Below are positions 1 through 9,971 of a stretch of 33,638 bases of DNA, piece by piece (position 1 is the first letter of the stretch; the number at the start of each line of letters is the position of its first letter). The notes beneath the pieces were generated by a model, which was given only the letters and a program-made list of their open reading frames with translations, was not told the DNA's origin and did not search any database. The translations under genes were made by a program, and so were the position numbers. Location: assembly GCA_018261655.1 (NCBI GenBank), contig JAGTSG010000016.1, positions 1 to 33,638 of the forward strand, in the 5' to 3' direction. The DNA comes from Pseudomonadota bacterium (GTDB lineage Bacteria; Pseudomonadota; Gammaproteobacteria; Steroidobacterales; Steroidobacteraceae).

Positions 1-335
1 CCGTCGTACTTCTCGATGGTCTGCTCGAGGATCGCCTCGGCCTGGTGGCCGGCGGCCGCCATGATCGTGTCGTCATAGTCCAGCGAGATCATCGACAGGA
101 CCACGTCCGACACCAGCGGGTGCGCGGAGCGGATGAACGCCTCGGTGCAGCAGGTGCATTCGAGGCCGTGCAGCCAGATCACGGGCATGCGCGGCTTGGT
201 CTCCATCGCATGCACGATCTGCGGCACGAACGCGGGGCCAAGGCCGAGCGACGTTGCCGTGATGCTGCAGAACTTGAGGAAACTGCGGCGCGATATGCCT
301 CGCCGGCGCATCACGTCATAGAAGGTGTCTGCCAT
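1..335 (-). CDS. hyaA: [NiFe] hydrogenase small subunit, 5' part (runs off left edge)
   Basis: This is the N-terminal 111 residues of the small, electron-transferring subunit of a group 1 membrane-bound uptake [NiFe] hydrogenase (HyaA/HoxK/HupS). The large subunit and cytochrome b would be expected beyond the left edge. Residues 15-21 read SRRSFLK, a textbook twin-arginine motif, followed by a hydrophobic stretch and a cleavage site after HA (residues 42-43), so the mature protein faces the periplasm. Directly after come [10 protein letters not shown] (54-63) and LISLDYDD-like sequence (SMISLDYDD), the diagnostic proximal FeS cluster region. With cleavage after residue 43, C60, C62 and C63 become mature C17, C19 and C20, the numbering of E. 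coli Hyd-1. C19 is the supernumerary cysteine of O2-tolerant enzymes; standard enzymes have Gly there. The ATG at 335 is preceded by GGGAGG at good spacing. The family is certain; O2 tolerance is inferred, since the partner cysteine lies outside the window. Confidence 0.95.
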
Positions 336-532
336 GGGACCTCCCGTTAGGGCCGGAACTCGCGCCGGGATCCACGTGACCCGGAGGGGGGCCACTCGGT
401 CGCGGTGCCGACCTGGGTGCTTTTTATTGCCTCAGGCCCGCGGACCGGCTGTCGCCGCACCCGCGTGCACAAGTCTCGCGCGGACCCGCCTCCGCGCTTG
501 GGGCGATCCTGCGGGGAGGGCTGGGGGGCAGC

Positions 533-570
533 AATACGCGGATTGCCCACGGGAATACGCGGTTCGCGTA
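533..570. promoter_or_regulatory. Candidate operator: phased AATACGCGG repeats plus palindrome
   Basis: AATACGCGG occurs at 533-541 and again at 554-562, exactly 21 bp (two helical turns) apart. The second copy is also the left arm of a perfect inverted repeat TACGCG-GTT-CGCGTA (556-570). Three half-sites on one DNA face, about 200 bp upstream of the hydrogenase start, look like a transcription factor site. The factor is unknown. Confidence 0.4.
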
Positions 571-605
571 GTGGTGGGGCCGAGGGGGAGCGAGCGGGTG
601 ATGAC

Positions 606-630
606 TGGCACTCGACCTGCGGGAGTGCCA
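606..630. terminator. Hairpin downstream of the SARP/STAND regulator gene
   Basis: Perfect 8-bp inverted repeat TGGCACTC / GAGTGCCA with a 9-nt loop, 11 bp past the stop codon of the minus-strand regulator gene. It lacks a T-tract, so it may be a weak or Rho-assisted terminator or an mRNA 3' stabiliser. Confidence 0.4.
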
Positions 631-641
631 GAGAAGGGCGC

Positions 642-3600
642 CTAGGGTTGGCGCGCGCGCGCCTCGGCGAGACCGGGCAACAGCCACCGAAAGCCCATGC
701 CGACAATCTCGGCCTCGAGCCGATCGAGCCGGGCCGGGTCGTCCTCCCCGGTGCCGCCGCGCAGGTCGCCGAGTAAACGGGCCCGGCGGATGATCACGTT
801 GGCCCAGGGCAGCGGTTCGTCGCCCGTGTAGGCCTCCAGGGCCGCCGCATGGCGCCTGGCCTCGGCGAAGTCGCCGGCGCGCAGGCTGAACTCGATCGCG
901 TGACGGTAGAACTCCAGGTAGTTGTGGCTCACGCATCCCCGGGCCAGCAGGTCCTCGCCCTGGCGCAGCAGGGCGCGCGCGCGGTCGCGGTCCCGGCCGT
1001 AGAGTGCCTCCGCGCTCAGGCACCACGGGCCGCAGTAGACCGGGCAGATCTCGAGCGCCAGGGCCGTCGCCTCCCGCAGCATCTCCCCGGCCTCGCGCAC
1101 GTCGCCGAGTTCGGCCTGCGCGATCCCGACGATCGACATCAACTCCGCCTCGAAGCGCCTCGCGCCGAGCTGGCGGGCCAGCTCGAGGCTGCGCAGGCCC
1201 GCCTGCCGGGCGCGTAAGAAGTCGGCGCCATAGATGCTGATGGTCCCCTCGATGTCCCTGGCGAGCAGCTCTGAGCGTACGTCGCCCGTCCGGCTCGCGG
1301 TACGCGTGACCTCCTCCACCTCCCGCAGCGCCTCGTCGAGCCTCCCGCAAAAGGCGCGAGTGGCCGCGAGCATCGGGGCATACGACAGCACGAGACCCAC
1401 TGCACCGTGCCGGCGCGCACGGTCCACGCAGCCGGCGAAGTGCTCTTCCGCGCGCAGCATCCGTCCGCGCTGATACCAGGCATCGCCGAGCCCGCCGAGT
1501 GCGCGGGCCTCGTCGAGCGGCGAGCGCGCTTCCTCGGCGAAGTGGAGCGCCTGCTGGTGCGCCCGCAGGCACTCGTCGAGTTCGCTGCGCGGGAAGTGGA
1601 TGTTGCCGCGCAGCGTCCAGACGCGGACCAGCACGTCCGGCCGGCGCAGGCCTGCAAGGCGGTCCTCGGCCCGGTCGAGCGCCGCGAGCGCCTCGTCGTA
1701 GCGATCGACGATCCTGAGCGCGTCGGCCAGGCCGAGCCAGGCGCGGGCGCCGAGTTCCCGGTCCGGTGCGAGGTCGATGGCCTCGCGGAAGGCGGCGATG
1801 GCGTCGTGCGTGTGCCCCGTCCGGGTCAGGAACTCGCCCAGCACCGCGCAGGCGAGCGCGAGGTCGGCCGGTTGCCGCGCCAGCTCCCGCGCCTTGCGCG
1901 CGTGCTCGAGCGCGCGTTCGTACCGCAACGACTCCGCCTCGGTGGCGGCGGCCGCCAGGAAGGCGGCGGCCGCCGACGGTTCGCCTGCTTCGGCCAGGTG
2001 GCCGGCCTGGACGCCCGGGTCGCGGCCGGCGTACCACTCGGCGGCCTTGCAGTGCAGCTCACGGCGCACCGAGCCAAGCAGCGAGTCGTAAATCGCGTCG
2101 CGGAACAGGGCGTGGGTGAAGAACGCCTCGCGGTCGGTCAGTCCCAGCAGGCCGGCGTCCACCAGCGGATCGAGCGGGCCAGCGGCGTCCCCCAGCAGGA
2201 AACCGACGGCCTCGCGCGGACAGCGCAGCCCGAGTACCGCTGCGGCGAACAGCGCCTCCCGTTCGCGAGGACCGAGCCGGTCGACGCGCGCCAGCACGAG
2301 CGCCCGAACGGACCCCGGCAGCGACCTTTCGCCGGCCACGGCGGCCCGCAGCAGCTGGTCAAGAAACAGGGGATGCCCGTCTGCGCGGCGGACACAGTCG
2401 TCGATCACCTCGTCCGGAAGCCCTTCGTAGCCCCCGGCGAGCTCCCGCGCTTCGTCCTCGGCGAGCGGCGTCAGGTCCAGCGTGGTCACGGGACAGCCCC
2501 GCGCCCGGGCGCGCCAGGCGGGGTTGATCGGGTCCTCGTCGGGCCGGGTGGTCATGACCAGCAGCGCGCGATGGGCGGCGATGGCCGCGGCGAGCTCGCC
2601 GAGCCGGGCTGCCTCGGCGGTGCTGGCCCAATGGACGTCCTCGATCGCCAGGGCCACGGGTTGTCTGGCGCAGGCGGACGCCAGCAGGCCGTGCACGACG
2701 GCGACACGCGCCGTGTCACGCACCCGGGAATCCTGGCCCGCGTCCAGCGATGCGATGTCCTGCGGCAGCGGGGCGTTGACCAGTTCGCTGGCTGCCACGA
2801 CGCTCGCCGCTGGCAGGCGGTCCGAGGCAATGGCGTCCGCCACGGCCCGCGCGCGATCCTGCGGCGTCGCGTCCGCGGCGATTCCCAGCAGACTGCCCGC
2901 CAGGGCGACGAGAGGGCGTCGTGCCTCGACCTGGCCGAAATCGAGCACCTCGACGCGGTGGCAGACCACGCCGCGGGCCGCGGCGCCGTCGAGGAACGCC
3001 TGTAACAGTCGGGTCTTGCCGATGCCCGCCTCGCCGCGGATCAGGATCACGCGGCCGCGGCCGGAGGCGATGCTGCGGTCGAGCAGGGACAGGATGAGCG
3101 ACAGTTCGGCGCGCCGGCCAGCCAGGGGTGCGCGCACGGGCTCGGGACCCGCCGGGAGCAGGCTCTCCAGCGCCCAGGCGATCGGCGGCGACCCGACGGG
3201 ACGCGTCACGGCCTGTTCGCCCAGCGCGCGCCGCGCGTCGCCGGTCACCAAGGTCTGGCCAGGTTGGGCCCGGTCGGCGAGCGTTGCGGCGTCGGTGGCG
3301 GGACGCCCCGACAGCGGGAAGGGGCGACCGGGCCGGTCTGGCAGGAGCTGTCCCTGCGCGATTCCGCAGGCGACGGACAGCGATGCGCAGTCCGGATGCG
3401 CCGCCAGGGACCGGCGGATCTCGCTCGCGGCGCGTACCGCTCGCTCGAGTTCACTGCCGCTCAGGCCCCCGAGGCCGAAAACGGCGGTCACCAGATCGCC
3501 GGACATCCGGTCCATCGTGCCGCCGAGCCGGGCGACAACCTCTTCCGTGGCAAGACGCAGGCGGTCTGCGTACTCGCGGGCCCGCTCCGGGTCGAGGGCG

Positions 3601-4511
3601 GCTTGCCGGTCCCTGAGCCCATGCACGCGCGCCACCAGCACCACCGCCTCGCGCAGCGACCGGTCGGGTGCCACGGCCGTCGCGGACGGCGACGCGACGG
3701 GCCTGTCTGCCGCGGGCTCGGTGTCGCCCGCCGCCGCACCGTCTGCGGCGTCCGTGGCGGAGCCCACGGAGTCGCCTGCGCGACGTCGCCGCATCAATTC
3801 CCGGTACAGGCTCTCGGTCGCCGGTTCCGGCGCCACGTCGAGGTCGCGCCGCAGGGCCATCCGGCACACCTGGTACTGCCTGAGCGCCTCGGTGTACCGC
3901 CCGGCCCGCGCATAGGCCTGCATGAGCTCGCGATGGGCGGGCTCGTCGGCCGGATCGAGGGCCAGCAGGCGCTCGAGGGCGGCGATCTCCCCGGTCCCGT
4001 CGCCGCCCTCCCGGCGCAGCAGCGCGAGGCGGCGCGCCATGCCCGCGACCTCGCGCCGCAGGGCGAGGCGCTCCCGCCGCAACCAGTCGTCGAATGCGCC
4101 GCTGCGTGCGTCGAGCCCGGCCAGCAGCTCGCCGCGCGCGAGATCCATGGCAGCCGCGAGCGACGCGGCGCTGCCCTCCGCATCCAGCTCCCGCAGACGC
4201 AGGCGGTCCACGTCCACCAGGGCAGCATCGAGCCGGACCTGCAGCGCGTCGGCGACGAGCGCCTGCGCGGACTCGCGAGGCAATGCGCGGCGCAGGGCTG
4301 ACAAGGCCTGGCGCAGGCTGGTGCGGGCCAGTTCGGGGTCGGCGTCTTCCCATAGCAGGGCCGCCAGCTGCTCACGTCCATGGGCGACACCCGCGTGCAC
4401 GGCGAGGTAGCCGAGCAAGGCGCGCGCCTTCCGCGCCGTCAGCGCGATGGATCGTCCCGCCGGGTCGCGGAACTCACAACCGCCGAGCAGCCGTGCCTCG
4501 AGAACCGCCAA
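642..4511 (-). CDS. Large SARP-type (BTAD) regulator with cyclase-like, STAND ATPase and TPR domains
   Basis: A 1289-residue signalling regulator. Residues 1 to about 100 form an OmpR/SARP-type winged helix, and about 100-245 a bacterial transcriptional activator (BTAD) TPR domain, as in AfsR/DnrI. Residues about 285-450 resemble a class III nucleotide cyclase, but the metal-binding aspartate of the first strand is missing (VLVARVHG) although SGDLVTAVFG is kept, so this is probably a sensor or scaffold rather than an active cyclase. A P-loop ATPase follows (Walker A GEAGIGKT near residue 490, Walker B ALAIEDVHW near 622). The last ~450 residues are helical TPR-like repeats. There is no C-terminal LuxR helix-turn-helix, so DNA binding must be N-terminal. 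The ATG at 4511 begins MAVLEARLLGG, typical of BTAD proteins. It is divergent from the TTC38-like gene and probably controls it. The signal sensed is unknown. Confidence 0.88.
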   Translation of the reverse strand: MAVLEARLLGGCEFRDPAGRSIALTARKARALLGYLAVHAGVAHGREQLAALLWEDADPELARTSLRQALSALRRALPRESAQALVADALQVRLDAALVDVDRLRLRELDAEGSAASLAAAMDLARGELLAGLDARSGAFDDWLRRERLALRREVAGMARRLALLRREGGDGTGEIAALERLLALDPADEPAHRELMQAYARAGRYTEALRQYQVCRMALRRDLDVAPEPATESLYRELMRRRRAGDSVGSATDAADGAAAGDTEPAADRPVASPSATAVAPDRSLREAVVLVARVHGLRDRQAALDPERAREYADRLRLATEEVVARLGGTMDRMSGDLVTAVFGLGGLSGSELERAVRAASEIRRSLAAHPDCASLSVACGIAQGQLLPDRPGRPFPLSGRPATDAATLADRAQPGQTLVTGDARRALGEQAVTRPVGSPPIAWALESLLPAGPEPVRAPLAGRRAELSLILSLLDRSIASGRGRVILIRGEAGIGKTRLLQAFLDGAAARGVVCHRVEVLDFGQVEARRPLVALAGSLLGIAADATPQDRARAVADAIASDRLPAASVVAASELVNAPLPQDIASLDAGQDSRVRDTARVAVVHGLLASACARQPVALAIEDVHWASTAEAARLGELAAAIAAHRALLVMTTRPDEDPINPAWRARARGCPVTTLDLTPLAEDEARELAGGYEGLPDEVIDDCVRRADGHPLFLDQLLRAAVAGERSLPGSVRALVLARVDRLGPREREALFAAAVLGLRCPREAVGFLLGDAAGPLDPLVDAGLLGLTDREAFFTHALFRDAIYDSLLGSVRRELHCKAAEWYAGRDPGVQAGHLAEAGEPSAAAAFLAAAATEAESLRYERALEHARKARELARQPADLALACAVLGEFLTRTGHTHDAIAAFREAIDLAPDRELGARAWLGLADALRIVDRYDEALAALDRAEDRLAGLRRPDVLVRVWTLRGNIHFPRSELDECLRAHQQALHFAEEARSPLDEARALGGLGDAWYQRGRMLRAEEHFAGCVDRARRHGAVGLVLSYAPMLAATRAFCGRLDEALREVEEVTRTASRTGDVRSELLARDIEGTISIYGADFLRARQAGLRSLELARQLGARRFEAELMSIVGIAQAELGDVREAGEMLREATALALEICPVYCGPWCLSAEALYGRDRDRARALLRQGEDLLARGCVSHNYLEFYRHAIEFSLRAGDFAEARRHAAALEAYTGDEPLPWANVIIRRARLLGDLRGGTGEDDPARLDRLEAEIVGMGFRWLLPGLAEARARQP

Positions 4512-4560
4512 TCGACCCCCCCGGAATCGGCGCGCCGGCTGGCACCGGCGTGGGCGCGAG

Positions 4561-4580
4561 TTTTCACGCTTTTTTCACGC
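4561..4580. promoter_or_regulatory. 11-bp-phased direct repeat, candidate SARP binding site
   Basis: TTTTCACGC occurs at 4561-4569 and 4572-4580, a period of exactly 11 bp. SARP-family activators (DnrI, ActII-ORF4, AfsR) are known to bind short direct repeats with 11-bp or 22-bp phasing next to the -35 region. The site lies between the SARP-type regulator gene and the divergent TTC38-like gene. That the regulator binds here is inference. Confidence 0.5.
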
Positions 4581-4631
4581 GTGTCGAGACGGGTCGCTCA
4601 CGGGCCATGGCGTCCAATGCCGCCCATCGCT

Positions 4632-4652
4632 GGCCGGTCACGGTGACCGGCC
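4632..4652. promoter_or_regulatory. Perfect 21-bp palindrome upstream of the TTC38-like gene
   Basis: GGCCGGTCAC, a single central G, then GTGACCGGCC: two perfect 10-bp arms ending 19 bp before the start codon at 4672. The position fits either an operator near the transcription start or a 5'-leader hairpin close to the ribosome binding site. The bound factor is unknown. Confidence 0.45.
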
Positions 4653-4671
4653 CCGAACCGGAGGACACGAC

Positions 4672-6075
4672 ATGTCGACGAAGGATTCACGCGGCCTGAC
4701 CGTCTCGACGTCCGATGCGGCAGCCCTCGATGGCTACGAGCGCGCCGCGACGCTGACCCACGGCTACTTCGGTAACCCGCTGGCGGTCATCGACGAGGCG
4801 CTGGCCGTGCAGCCGGACTTTGCGCTGGGGCACTGCCTGAAGGCGGCGATCGCCGTGATGTCGTCGGAGCGCGCCGCGCTGCCGATGCTGCGCGACAGCG
4901 TCGAGGCGATCGAGCGTCTCGGCCGCAAGGCCACGGACCGGGAGCGGGCGCACGCCGCCGCCGGCCGCGCCTGGCTCGAGGGCGACTTCGTTCGCTCGGT
5001 CCGCCTCTATGGAGAAATCGCGCTCGAGCACCCGCTCGACCTGCTGGCATTGCAGACCGCCCATGTCGGCGACTTCTACCTCGGCGAGTCGACGATGCTC
5101 AGGGACCGCATCGCGCAGGTCCTGCCCTGCTGGAGCCCGGAGGTGCCCGGGTTCGGCTTCGTCCTCGGCATGTACGCGTTCGGCCTGGAGGAGACGGCCC
5201 TGTACTCGCGTGCCGAGGATGCAGGCCGTCGTGCCCTCGACCTGAACCCGCGCGATCCCTGGGCGGTGCATGCCGTGGCGCACGTGCTCGAGATGCAAGG
5301 CCGCATCCGCGAGGGCATCGACTGGCTGAACTCCACCCGCGGCGACTGGGCCGAGGACTGCGGCTTTGCCTACCACAACTGGTGGCACCTCGCGCTCCAT
5401 CACCTCGAGCTCGACGAGTACGACCGTGCGCTGGAGCTCTATGACCGGGCCATCCACCCGCGGTCCACGCAGGTCGCGCTCGAGCTGGTGGACGCGTCCG
5501 CGCTGCTCTGGCGGCTGACGCTGCGCGGCGTCGACGTCGGCGGTCGCTGGAAGCAGGTGGCCGACGACTGGTCGCAGACGGCCGAGGGCGGTTTCTACGC
5601 CTTCAACGACGTGCATGGCTTGATGGCCTATGCCGCCGCGGGCCGCGACGCCGACGTCGCCAGGGTGCTGGAGATCCTCGCACGACGTGCGGGCGAGCCC
5701 GACACGAACGGCACGATGTCACGCGACGTGGCATTGCCGCTCGCGCGCGCCGTCGCGGCGCTGTCGCAGGGCGATGCCGCCGCTGCGGTCGAGTGCATCG
5801 TCCCGATGCGCACGCGGGCCCATCGCTTCGGCGGCAGCCACGCCCAGCGCGACATCGTTCACCTGACGCTGCTCGAGGCGGCGCATCGCGCGGGCCGGGT
5901 CGGGCTGGAGCGGGCACTCGCGAGCGAACGGACGGAGCTCAAGCCGACGAGTCCCTTCAACTGGAAGCTGACCGCGCGCGCCCTCGAGGCGGCCGGCGAT
6001 GTCCAGGGGGCACGCAAGACGCGAGAACACGCGGACGTTCGCCGCAGGGCGCAGCAGCGCAGCGCGGCAGCCTGA
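4672..6075 (+). CDS. TTC38-like tetratricopeptide repeat protein
   Basis: A 467-residue soluble protein without signal peptide or membrane segments, made of helical repeats. Its overall pattern matches the tetratricopeptide repeat protein 38 (TTC38) family: an early GYFGNPLAVIDEAL segment, RERAHAAAGRAWLEGD, the segment LNPRDPWAVHAVAHVLEMQGR, and FAYHNWWHLALHHLEL near the middle. The biochemical role of bacterial TTC38 homologues is not established; a binding or scaffold function is likely. The ATG at 4672 was chosen because it follows a GAGGA-like ribosome binding site and the conserved repeats begin soon after; the frame is open upstream (from 4447), but that stretch shows no conservation and covers the putative operators. 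The gene is divergent from the SARP-type regulator and is followed after 43 bp by a small exported peptide gene, probably in one transcript. Confidence 0.82.
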   Translation: MSTKDSRGLTVSTSDAAALDGYERAATLTHGYFGNPLAVIDEALAVQPDFALGHCLKAAIAVMSSERAALPMLRDSVEAIERLGRKATDRERAHAAAGRAWLEGDFVRSVRLYGEIALEHPLDLLALQTAHVGDFYLGESTMLRDRIAQVLPCWSPEVPGFGFVLGMYAFGLEETALYSRAEDAGRRALDLNPRDPWAVHAVAHVLEMQGRIREGIDWLNSTRGDWAEDCGFAYHNWWHLALHHLELDEYDRALELYDRAIHPRSTQVALELVDASALLWRLTLRGVDVGGRWKQVADDWSQTAEGGFYAFNDVHGLMAYAAAGRDADVARVLEILARRAGEPDTNGTMSRDVALPLARAVAALSQGDAAAAVECIVPMRTRAHRFGGSHAQRDIVHLTLLEAAHRAGRVGLERALASERTELKPTSPFNWKLTARALEAAGDVQGARKTREHADVRRRAQQRSAAA

Positions 6076-6118
6076 GCGACGACCTATTCGATGACACCAC
6101 CATCAAGAGGAGACGACC

Positions 6119-6331
6119 ATGAGCAACCTGACTTTGGCCTCGCGCCTGGCCCGCGCCGTCGCGGTGCTGGCCTGCGTGCTGGTCCAGTGGTGGCCGGTGG
6201 CCACCTACGCGGGTCCGTCGCCGCCGACGGAGATCGCGTTCTACGGCCCGGACGAGGCGCAGGGCGACAGCTGCCGCCCGTTCCGTCGCCTCGGCACGGT
6301 GACGACCCTGCGGTACGACTGCGCGGCCTGA
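6119..6331 (+). CDS. Small exported peptide with two cysteines
   Basis: A 70-residue product that I do not recognise. Residues 1-31 look like a Sec signal peptide: basic N-region with two arginines, hydrophobic core AVAVLACVLVQWWPVA, then TYAG with likely cleavage after Ala. The mature part would be about 39 residues with only two cysteines, one in GDSCRPF and one in the C-terminal RYDCAA, which could form one disulfide. A strong ribosome binding site (AGAGGAGA) precedes the ATG. It starts 43 bp after the TTC38-like gene in the same direction and a strong hairpin follows, so the two genes probably form an operon. The C-terminal location of a conserved-looking Cys pair suggests a signalling or binding peptide, but this is a guess. 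The opposing frames in this region overlap bioD and are not credible. Confidence 0.6.
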   Translation: MSNLTLASRLARAVAVLACVLVQWWPVATYAGPSPPTEIAFYGPDEAQGDSCRPFRRLGTVTTLRYDCAA

Positions 6332-6376
6332 GGTGCGCGGACCGCGATGGCCGGCTCGACGGGTATGCAAGGGACC

Positions 6377-6408
6377 GGGACGGCCGGGGTACTGACCCCG
6401 GCCGTCCC
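6377..6408. terminator. Strong bidirectional hairpin between convergent transcripts
   Basis: A perfect 13-bp GC-rich stem (GGGACGGCCGGGG / CCCCGGCCGTCCC) with a 6-nt loop, between the small exported peptide gene (plus) and the end of bioD (minus). There is no marked T-tract on either side. By position it ends both the TTC38/peptide transcript and the biotin operon. Confidence 0.7.
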
Positions 6409-6411
6409 GCG

Positions 6412-7098
6412 TCAGGACAGCATTCGCAGGTCGAGCGAGGTCACGGCCGCGTCCACCGCGCCGGCGGCCGCGTAGGGCACGATGCCGAGGCAAGGAGCCG
6501 CCAGTTGCCGCCGCAGCGCCGTCACGTTCGCGTCGCGGCGCGCGAAGTCCGGATCGACCTGGTTGCCGACCCATCCGGCCAGCCGCAGTCTGCGTGCGGC
6601 AATGGCCTCGGCCGTCAGCAACGCGTGGTTCAGGCAGCCGAGCCTGAGGCCCACGACCAGGATCACCTCGAGCCCGAGAGCACCCGGCAGGTCCGCGAAG
6701 GACAGGCCAGGCGCGAGCGGCACGAGGAAGCCACCGGCTCCCTCGACGATCACCGTATCGCTGCCGGCCTGCAGCCTGCGGAACGCCTGCTCGATCGGCT
6801 CGAGCCGGATCTCGATGCCGGCCTCGGCCGCGGCGATGTGCGGCGCGATCGCCGGCTCGAAACAGAACGGGTTGACCGTCTCGTAGGGCCAGGGCCGGGA
6901 TCCCTCCGCCGCCAGTGCCAGCGCGTCGTCATTGCGCAGCCCATCGGGCGTGCGGATGGCGCCCGAGGCCACCGGCTTCATCCCGGCGACGGCCAGGCCC
7001 CGGCCGCGCAGCGCGCGTAACAGCGCGGTGCTGACCCGCGTCTTGCCGACGCCGGTATCGGTGCCGGTGACGAAGAAATCGCGGCGCGCGACGCTCAT
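6412..7098 (-). CDS. bioD: Dethiobiotin synthetase
   Basis: ATP-dependent dethiobiotin synthetase, which closes the ureido ring of 7,8-diaminopelargonate with CO2, the penultimate step of biotin synthesis; cytosolic. The product is 228 residues, normal for the family. FVTGTDTGVGKT at residues 9-20 is the BioD P-loop, KPVASG follows near residue 40, and VEGAGGFLVPL carries the second nucleotide-binding loop. The ATG at 7098 overlaps the bioC stop as ATGA, so it is the last gene of a translationally coupled bioB-F-H-C-D operon. A strong hairpin follows its stop. Confidence 0.96.
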   Translation of the reverse strand: MSVARRDFFVTGTDTGVGKTRVSTALLRALRGRGLAVAGMKPVASGAIRTPDGLRNDDALALAAEGSRPWPYETVNPFCFEPAIAPHIAAAEAGIEIRLEPIEQAFRRLQAGSDTVIVEGAGGFLVPLAPGLSFADLPGALGLEVILVVGLRLGCLNHALLTAEAIAARRLRLAGWVGNQVDPDFARRDANVTALRRQLAAPCLGIVPYAAAGAVDAAVTSLDLRMLS

Positions 7099-7967
7099 GT
7101 CCCGGCGTCCCGGCGGCCGATGGCGGAGGGATCGAAGGTGAACTCGCCGGCGCGCCGGCCCCGTTCGGGCTTGCCGGCGGGTCCCCAGGCCTGGCCGAAG
7201 ACGACCTCGTAGGTCGCGGGCAGCACGCCGCCGCGGCGATGACGCTCGTAGGCGGCCTGCATCGCCAGCAGGCGCCGGCGCCCCGTCAGGCCGCGCGGGC
7301 GCTGTGCGGCGGCGTTGTGGGCGCCGATGGCCTTGAGGTCGCGCATCAGGCCGAATACGTCGGGATAGGTCAGCGTATATCGCTCGACGTCGAGGACCGG
7401 CTCGGCGAGGCCGGCCCGCACCAGGCCATCGCCGACGTCGTGCATGTCCGGGAACTCGCTCACGTGCACCTGGCCGTCGGCCTGGCCCCAGGCGCCGCGG
7501 AGCTCGGACAGCGTATCGGGGCCGAAAGTCGTGAAGTTGAGCAGCCCGCGAGGCCGCAGCACGCGGCGGAACTCGGCGAAGGTCGCGTCGAGGTCGGTGC
7601 ACCACTGCAGCGTCAGGCTGGAGAACAGCAGGTCCACGCTCGCATCGCCAAGCGGCAGGCGCATGGCGTCGCCGCAGACCTGCAGCGTGGACCCGTGCCG
7701 TCGGGCCTCGCGCAGCATCCCCTCGGCGAGGTCGAGCGCGATCACGCGCGAGGAGGGGTAGCGCCCGGCGAGGGCCTGCGCGGCGTGGCCGGTTCCGCAA
7801 CCGACGTCCACGATGACCCCGGGCTCGAGGACCACGTAGTCGAGCCGGGCGAGCAGCTGCCGCCGGACCTCGGCCTGCAGCACCGCCGACTCGTCGTAGG
7901 CCGCCGCCGCGCGATCGAAGGAGCGCCGGATCGCGGCGCGGTCGAGCCCGAACACGCGGGGGCTCAT
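7095..7967 (-). CDS. bioC: Malonyl-ACP O-methyltransferase
   Basis: SAM-dependent methyltransferase that caps the malonyl-ACP carboxyl so that fatty acid synthesis enzymes can build the pimeloyl chain. The product is 290 residues. The N-terminal FDRAAAAYDESAVLQ block is typical of BioC, motif I is DVGCGTG (54-60), and SSLTLQWCTDL and RVLRPRGLLNFTTFG are further hallmark motifs. The start at 7967 overlaps the bioH stop as ATGA, and its own stop overlaps the bioD start in the same way. The BioC-BioH pairing identifies this as the E. coli-type pimelate route. Confidence 0.96.
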   Translation of the reverse strand: MSPRVFGLDRAAIRRSFDRAAAAYDESAVLQAEVRRQLLARLDYVVLEPGVIVDVGCGTGHAAQALAGRYPSSRVIALDLAEGMLREARRHGSTLQVCGDAMRLPLGDASVDLLFSSLTLQWCTDLDATFAEFRRVLRPRGLLNFTTFGPDTLSELRGAWGQADGQVHVSEFPDMHDVGDGLVRAGLAEPVLDVERYTLTYPDVFGLMRDLKAIGAHNAAAQRPRGLTGRRRLLAMQAAYERHRRGGVLPATYEVVFGQAWGPAGKPERGRRAGEFTFDPSAIGRRDAGT

Positions 7968-8743
7968 GCGCGGGCCCGCCGGGCCGGGGCCGGATCGAGG
8001 AACTCGCGGCAGGCGGCCAGGAACGGCTGCGGATGCGAGAGAAAGGGCGCGTGGCTGGCGCCGGCGATCATCGCGAGGCGGGCGCCGGGAACGTGGCCGG
8101 CGAGCCAGGCCGCGGCGGCGGGCGGGGTGAGCCGGTCGTACCCGCCCGCGATGACCAGGGTCGGCACCGCGATGTGACCGACCAGGTCGCGCAGGTCGGC
8201 CTGGCACAGGACGCGCAGGCCGGCCCGCAGCGCCGCGGGTTCCGGCTCGCCGCGGGCGAACACCTGCGCGCGCAGCTGGCGCAGCAGCGCGGGCGCCTGC
8301 TCGTCGCCGCGCGCCTGCAGCGACAGGAAGCGGCGCACCAGTCCCCGGTAGTCGCGCTCCAGCTCGCCGGCGAATTCCCCGACGACGTCGGCATCCAGGC
8401 CGTGCCGCCAGTCCGGCCCGGCAACGAACCTGGGCGTGGTGGCGACCAGCACCAGGCGCCGGATGGACGGATGACCCCCGGCGGCAAGCTTCGCCGCCAC
8501 CATGCCGCCGAGGGACCAGCCGATCACGGTGCACGCGGGCGGCAGGCCGGCGCCGACGCCGGCCGCGAGGTCGTCGAGGTCGGTGAAGGGCGGCTCGAAG
8601 GGCCGGCCGCCGTGCCCCGGCAGGTCCGGGCAGGCGACCTCGTGGCCGTCGGCGGCCAGCGCCGCGGCGAGCGGCGCCATCACGCCGCCGTGCAGCGCCC
8701 AGCCGTGCAGCAGGACGATGGAAGAGGGGTCAGGCCCCACCAC
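7964..8743 (-). CDS. bioH: Pimeloyl-ACP methyl ester carboxylesterase
   Basis: Alpha/beta hydrolase that removes the BioC methyl group once the pimeloyl chain is complete. The oxyanion region is [11 protein letters not shown], the nucleophile elbow GWSLGG, the acid is the Asp in GGYDRLTP, and the catalytic His lies in GASHAPF. I place the start at the GTG at 8743 (GTG-GTG-GGG-CCT-GAC-CCC), which has AGGGGG six to seven bases upstream. It sits in the arm of a repeat element and uses the same sequence as the bioF start. An in-frame ATG at 8773 (259 versus 269 residues) has no ribosome binding site and lies in the loop of that element. The gene overlaps the end of bioF and its stop overlaps the bioC start (ATGA). 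The function is well supported; the start is less certain. Confidence 0.92.
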
Positions 8744-8814
8744 TCTGTCCCCCTTGCACGTGTTCGCCGACATCCGGCGGGTCCGCTGTCGGGGACAGGG
8801 TGGGGTCTGAACCC
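8726..8814. repeat. REP/BIME-like element A at the bioF/bioH junction
   Basis: An imperfect inverted repeat of 89 bp. The left arm begins GGGGTCAGGCCCC (8726-8738) and runs on as ACCACTCTGTCCCCC. The right arm is GGGGACAGGG (8791-8800) then TGGGGTCTGAACCC (8801-8814). About 38 bp of loop separate them. It contains the bioF stop (8730-8732) and the probable bioH start (8741-8743). Read on the minus strand it encodes the last ~27 residues of BioF. Confidence 0.85.
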
Positions 8815-9971
8815 TCCGAAAGCACCTCCGCCAGCGCCTCGACGAGCCCGACGACGTCCGCGTCCTCGTGCGTCGCGCAGAGTGTCACCCGCAGCCGCGA
8901 GCCGCCTTCCGGGACGGTCGGCGGCCGTATGGCCGTGACCAGGAAACCGCGGCCGAGCAGCGCCTCGCTCGCCGCGGTAGCGGCCTGCGGCGTGCCGAGC
9001 AGCACCGGCTGGATGGGCGTGAACGAGTCAGCGAGCGGCAGGCCCGCGTGCCTGGCCAGGTCGCGAAACCGGGTGACGTGGGCGAGCACGCGACGGGCTC
9101 TCCACGGTTCGGTCCGGACGATCCCGAGCGCCGCGCGCGTTGCCTCCGCCACGGCCGGCGGCAGCGCCGTCGTATAGATGTAGGTGCGCGCCCGCTGGAC
9201 CAGCAGGTCGATGAGATCGCGGTCGCCTGCCACGAAGGCGCCGAAGGTGCCGAAGGCCTTGCCGAGGGTGCCGACGAGCACCGGCACGTCCACGGCGCCG
9301 AGGCCGAAGTGCTCGACCGTGCCGCCGCCCGTCGCGCCCAGCACCCCGAGGCCATGCGCGTCGTCCACGACCAGCGTCGCCCGATGCCGCCTGCAGGCCG
9401 AGGCATAGCGCGGCAGCGGGGCGAGATCGCCGTCCATGCTGAACACGCCGTCGGTCAGCACCAGCTTGCGGCCGCGCCCGGCCGGCTCGAGACGTCGTTC
9501 CAGCGCGTCGGAGTCGCCGTGGTTGAAGCGCGAGAAGCGGGCGCCGCAGAGCAGGCCCGCGTCGAGCAGCGAGGCGTGGTTGAGCCGGTCCTCGAGCACG
9601 GTGTCGCCGCGCCCGGCGAGCGCCGCGGCGACGCCGAGGTTCGCCATGTAGCCGGTCGAGAACAGCAGGGCGCGCTCGCGGCCGGTGAACGCCGCGAGTT
9701 CCTCCTCGAGCGCATGGTGTGCGCGCTGGTGGCCCGTGACGAGGTGCGAGGCGCCGCTGCCGGCGCCGAGGCTGCGGGCGGCCGCGGCCATCGCCTCGGC
9801 GACGCGCGGGTCCTGCGCCAGGCCGAGGTAGTCATTCGAGCAGAAGTTCAGCACCTCGCGTCCCCCGACGACGCAGCGGGCGCCGGGCAGGGCCTGCTCG
9901 ACCACGCGACGGCGACGATAGAGGCCGGCGGCGCGCAGCGCGGCGAGGTGTGAGGCGGGGTCAGGCCCCAC
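8730..9971 (-). CDS. bioF: 8-amino-7-oxononanoate synthase
   Basis: PLP-dependent condensation of pimeloyl-ACP with alanine. The product is 413 residues. [11 protein letters not shown] (41-51), [18 protein letters not shown] (203-209) and TLGKAFG with the Schiff-base lysine K238 are all present. The only plausible start is the GTG at 9971, which lies in a repeat element arm and gives Met-Gly-Pro-Asp-Pro at the N-terminus; the next in-frame GTG would remove the N-terminal helix. The C-terminal ~27 residues after LAEVLSE (GSDPTLSP...GGA) are encoded by repeat element A. Without them the protein is about 386 residues, close to the 384 of E. coli BioF. The gene overlaps bioB by 11 bp and bioH by 14 bp (44 bp if bioH starts at 8773). 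Confidence 0.95.

Follow-up and report, generated by a model that had tools for sequence, protein, structure and literature searches.

What does a large regulator of the kind studied almost only as a Streptomyces antibiotic switch control in a gammaproteobacterium, and is a small exported peptide encoded beside its target the signal that it reads? We addressed these questions for one end of contig JAGTSG010000016.1 (assembly GCA_018261655.1, family Steroidobacteraceae); the window, that is, the whole stretch of DNA analysed, is this contig of 33,638 nucleotides, part of a 2.2-Mb genome that is 75% complete. A 1289-residue SARP regulator of the PimR type (TTG start; 642-4511, minus strand) faces the gene of a 467-residue TPR protein (4672-6075, plus strand), here called putatively TTC38-like, a label that comes from an earlier reading of the sequence alone (the sequence-only reading). 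A 70-residue exported peptide with two cysteines (6119-6331, plus strand; signal 6119-6211, mature part 6212-6328) is encoded next. The list of open reading frames supports all three genes, together with Pfam and fold matches for the regulator, Pfam, alignment and a structure model for the TTC38-like protein, and composition and alignment for the peptide. The sequence-only reading had described this three-gene layout, which stands, and had proposed that it forms a signalling unit. We consider it probable that the unit is a PimR-type large SARP activator with a divergent target operon, that the regulator activates the TTC38-like gene from repeats at 4562-4602, and that the peptide is an accessory output.

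The regulator opens with an OmpR-like winged helix followed by a BTAD, as in SARP proteins (residues 1-240, or about 1-245; 3792-4511, minus strand). Pfam matched the BTAD above its cut-off (1.1e-18) and Trans_reg_C just under it (3.1e-5), and the EmbR structure 2fez matched the domain by sequence (1.1e-7). Residues 1-470 were modelled (mean predicted local distance difference test score, pLDDT, 82.7); the first part of the model matched the folds of AfsR on its promoter (8k60/8hvr) and of EmbR, and residues 282-455 (3147-3668, minus strand) matched the class III nucleotide cyclases Rv1625c, CyaB and CyaC with Z of about 20-23 (Foldseek, VIA-align). An AAA_16/STAND ATPase domain follows at residues 463-651 (2559-3125, minus strand; Pfam AAA_16 2.4e-16, Walker A GEAGIGKT), and Pfam places the start of the TPRs at about residue 855. 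These matches confirm the SARP/STAND regulator with a P-loop ATPase and TPRs that the sequence-only reading had recognized. Its description of the cyclase domain as devoid of metal ligands held for the first Asp, which is replaced by Arg, but not for the second, which the window copy keeps (GD in MSGDLVTAVFG); in Steroidobacter-type relatives both are gone. The window regulator thus lacks the pair of metal-binding Asp residues of an active class III cyclase, and the domain is degenerate. The best partial match in NCBIfam was a TOMM kinase/cyclase fusion over the cyclase-ATPase-TPR part, far below cut-off.

Several known regulators share parts of this architecture. EmbR of Mycobacterium tuberculosis has a SARP-type winged helix and BTAD but no ATPase, and it carries a C-terminal FHA domain, unlike the window regulator. 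PimR is the architectural prototype: it joins a SARP to guanylate-cyclase-like and AAA parts, and the repeats that it binds lie between divergent genes (PMC3367932, PMC5930380). PimR and the SARP-LAL proteins of Streptomyces (SanG, PteR, FilR) resemble the window regulator in having an N-terminal SARP, a guanylate-cyclase-like region between the SARP and the AAA ATPase, and no LuxR helix-turn-helix; no LuxR/GerE helix-turn-helix was among the Pfam matches of the window regulator. The likeness extends to a divergent intergenic operator made of direct heptamers with 4-nt spacers (PMC3367932, PMC5930380). In contrast to these systems, the window unit is proteobacterial, its heptamer is TTTCACG rather than CGGCAAG with a spacing of 11+12+11, and its predicted targets are a TTC38-like gene and exported TPR proteins rather than an antibiotic-cluster pathway regulator. 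The neighbours are a hydrogenase small subunit gene and biotin genes, not a secondary-metabolite cluster; what we claim is a PimR-like architecture and site, not an "antibiotic SARP." AfsR likewise combines SARP, ATPase and TPRs, shares the fold (8k60/8hvr), and uses direct repeats whose 3' repeat lies 8 bp from the -10 element, but it is described with NOD and TPR only, without a cyclase domain (PMC10936776), and its targets differ. A survey doubted that proteobacterial SARP matches are typical, most of them being without a BTAD (PMC7040171).

We asked how consistently the regulator and the TTC38-like gene occur together. Among 217 genomes of the family, 39 had some TTC38 homologue, and in all 13 with a close one (55-100% identity) the regulator gene was adjacent and divergent. 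Searched for on its own, the regulator turned up in 12 of 140 family genomes, each one among these 13. The co-occurrence that the sequence-only reading had proposed to check is therefore clear. The unit was present in one of six genomes of the window's genus, the window's own. Outside the family, the pair was found in one metagenome-assembled genome (MAG) labelled Burkholderiales (L033), and most other TTC38 homologues (43-59% identity) were without the regulator. Because pairing is complete among close homologues in the family and pairs outside are few, the regulator-TTC38 unit is real, but it is patchy and clade-limited.

The intergenic region between the two genes contains a predicted SARP-type operator at 4562-4602 (plus strand), which the sequence-only reading had overlooked and which was recognized from repeats and alignment: TTTCACG at 4562-4568 and again at 4573-4579, a degenerate CGAGACG at 4585-4591, and GCTCACG at 4596-4602. 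The direct repeat TTTTCACGC occurs there twice with 11-bp spacing. We compared 14 such divergons, and the pattern TTTCACG-N4-TTTCACG-N18-TCACG was present in all 14 intergenic regions, with the first base varying in two; carriers of this box span four genera plus the MAG outside the family. Alignment of the 14 regions also placed a conserved -10-like element at 4612-4618 (plus strand), which in most relatives reads TACAAA or TATAAA and lies 8-9 bp past the last repeat. A sigma-70 promoter scan of 300-7200 found no promoter. By published rules, a SARP site consists of direct repeats that recur every 11 or 22 bp, the 3' one standing 8 bp from the -10 element (PMC10936776, PMC7040171). The window operator, with steps of 11 and then 23 bp and with 8-9 bp to the TACAAA-like element in relatives, fits these rules closely, save for the second step. 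The box appeared in 0 of 70,000 Markov-resampled regions, and when two mismatches were tolerated, 0.02 double repeats would be expected in the window. The exact 14-base double repeat occurred 17 times in the 217 genomes (reversed control, 0), 11 of them in the regulator-TTC38 intergenic region. Three exact box-like sites elsewhere (L143-L145) were discarded as they look like chance, with no clear promoter placement and no conserved third repeat.

The same box precedes a second operon, which encodes two exported TPR proteins, in seven Steroidobacter-type genomes (G134, G122, G114, G074, G105 and G140; weaker in G060). It is oriented as at the TTC38-like gene, and its first base lies about 90-115 bp from the start codon. 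We looked for the box at orthologues of the exported-TPR gene in six further genomes (G044, G085, G003, G095, G107 and G111) and found none, so it is not simply part of that gene. With this operon in seven genomes sharing the box, a small regulon becomes visible. Five Steroidobacter-type genomes (L196, L237-L240) also carry a conserved TTTCACG-N4-CTTCACG-N18-TCACG, apparently non-coding and near a short possible membrane-protein frame; this site is a candidate third member.

The box sits between the two promoters and could serve either of the genes. Binding by the SARP is a prediction, and the box might instead be read by a different regulator, such as a response regulator of the OmpR type, with the SARP a bystander that is itself controlled by the box; OmpR-type wings can bind direct repeats too. 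We regard this as unlikely, as nearly all genomes with the exact box also carry this SARP, and presence of the SARP predicts the box. Hwanghaeella grinnelliae (L037) speaks against it as well: there a diverged SARP gene precedes TTC38, and the 11-bp direct repeat in the intergenic region has other letters (TTTTGAC), as would be expected if the site changed along with its regulator. Alternatively, the regulator may repress the TTC38-like gene or act mainly on its own promoter, and the distances leave room for this, the operator being 51 bp from the regulator start codon and 110 bp from the TTC38 start. That reading strikes us as quite improbable: the -10-like element past the last repeat points to TTC38, and the same orientation of the box before the exported-TPR operon is SARP activator geometry.

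An activator working from this operator remains the reading that we prefer, and some observations weigh against it. The window's own -10 element is weak (GTCCAAT), and the second and last repeats are 23 bp apart, not 22. The window's own genome, at its 75% completeness, yielded no second target, and its only homologue of the exported TPR proteins is a distant one (29%). Relatedness is common among the family genomes, ten of which belong to one GTDB genus, and the 14 loci represent far fewer than 14 independent events.

The TTC38-like protein itself matched only TPR models in Pfam. Its structure model (mean pLDDT 92.6) shows a helical solenoid of the TPR type, with the length expected of TTC38/StaR-like proteins, and comparison with solved structures returned generic TPR matches only. 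Across 18 TTC38-like sequences, H200, H204, E207, HNWWH (235-239), FND-H (311-315) and GGS-AQRD (387-394) are invariant. These His, Asp, Glu and Arg motifs suggest a metal or ligand pocket, not a mere scaffold. A literature search on TTC38, StaR and proteobacterial SARP-LAL proteins found nothing relevant. In one genome (G003; L038:6001-7389), the TTC38-like gene has one stop codon inside the match, while the regulator and box are intact.

We then turned to the peptide. Its frame is preceded by a Shine-Dalgarno sequence (AGGAG, 6108-6112), and its GC content by codon position (0.66/0.60/0.96) is as it should be for coding sequence in DNA so rich in GC. A Sec-type signal, MSNLTLASRLARAVAVLACVLVQWWPVATYA, with cleavage before GPSPP, would leave 39 mature residues with two cysteines, as the sequence-only reading had noted; both are read directly from the sequence. 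By its coding-type composition, Shine-Dalgarno sequence and signal sequence, the frame is likely a real gene. Pfam, NCBIfam and PHROGs gave no credible match. A genome of another genus (G107) encodes a 72-residue peptide in the same slot after TTC38, and the two mature parts share CRPxxRLG and the second cysteine (alignment Z 5.6; 0 of 2000 shuffles). Neither G111 nor any of ten Steroidobacter-type loci has a homologue after TTC38, leaving 11 of the 13 family divergons without one. A profile search of the 217 family genomes for a wider family recovered the window, G107 and otherwise just fragments at chance level; the best of the short fragments (L128, L129, L131, L135-L137) were checked and are not small exported frames.

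The sequence-only reading had put the peptide forward as the third defining part and the possible signal, and the G107 locus is the only other one of the 13 to support it. By the test that this reading had set, conservation of the small frame after TTC38-like genes, the proposal largely fails. Divergons that lack the peptide still keep regulator, box and TTC38, so it cannot be what the regulator responds to in general. An extracellular signal read by the TPR-ATPase regulator, in a quorum or self-sensing loop, would sit well with a frame inside the operon, a signal sequence, third-position GC of 0.96 and a same-slot homologue. We nevertheless find it highly improbable: beyond the absences, no membrane segment is among the domains found in the regulator, and the peptide would have to be imported. 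In addition, G107 carries a tandem copy of 114 bp, 73% identical (L101:7448-7561 and 7812-7925), which duplicates the ribosome-binding and signal part, and the second copy now codes only the signal part, in a 32-residue frame. Repeated palindromes of the type GGGGACGCGTCCCC lie at L101:7405-7450 and 7968-8004 and in the G107 regulator-TTC38 intergenic region; they are perhaps repetitive extragenic palindromic (REP)-like or a small mobile element.

The peptide could instead be an envelope or secreted effector, an output of the operon rather than its input. This idea is compatible with the activator reading, and we hold it to be a serious possibility, though somewhat short of an even chance. The other box-controlled operon encodes exported proteins, and the MAG outside the family has an exported small protein with two cysteines 15 residues apart (L033:7515-7784), after TTC38 and before an alpha/beta hydrolase gene, as though exported cargo gathers in this slot. 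On the other side, only two homologues of the peptide are known. The L033 protein was rejected as a homologue, since its shuffled-score Z values (-0.0 and -1.1) show no sequence relation. Overall, the peptide is more likely an accessory output than a signal, and not a core part of the unit. It is unlikely that the two-cysteine peptide (CRPxxRLG...C) serves a PimR-type SARP switch with a TTC38/exported-TPR envelope output as a signal or effector specific to the lineage; if it did, this would be a peptide-linked SARP circuit outside Actinobacteria. What endures of the proposed signalling unit is the regulator and TTC38 as a conserved pair with an operator, not the role given to the peptide.

The unit ends near a perfect 15-bp hairpin with a 4-nt loop (6376-6409, no strand assigned), identified by repeat search and RNA folding (z = -5.0). 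The sequence-only reading had rightly seen a strong hairpin here but gave its stem as 13 bp. It lacks a T-run. The peptide gene lies on one side of it and convergent bioD, ending at 6412, on the other; the hairpin is a probable terminator for one of these genes or both. No RNA element in Rfam matched the window. The unit is flanked on this side by bioD, bioC, bioH and bioF (6412-9971, minus strand), and on the other by hydA, for a hydrogenase small subunit with a twin-arginine translocation (TAT) signal (3-395, minus strand), cut by the contig end.

Taken as a switch, the unit most probably works as follows. An intracellular cue would act on the ATPase-TPR part, in which the AAA ATPase and TPRs, with the broken cyclase domain, may form a module for intracellular signal input and ATP-controlled oligomerization. 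SARP subunits would then pair on the TTTCACG-N4-TTTCACG and GCTCACG repeats, and with the last repeat 8-9 bp upstream of the -10 position, RNA polymerase would be recruited to the TTC38 promoter. The TTC38-like protein would be made and, in the window's genome, also the exported peptide, if its downstream gene is co-transcribed; in Steroidobacter-type relatives the same box would drive the second operon as well. Because that box precedes the exported-TPR operon in relatives, the output seems to be a TPR-protein or envelope function.

The SARP described here is proteobacterial and complete in its domains, keeps strictly to one partner gene, and has a precisely placed putative operator and a second predicted target. 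Its regulon is therefore open to direct tests in a cultured relative, and the TTC38-like family gains a regulatory setting and a group of conserved residues from which to start. What these genomes yield of value is a predicted SARP switch of the PimR type in a proteobacterium, with a defined putative operator and a partial regulon.

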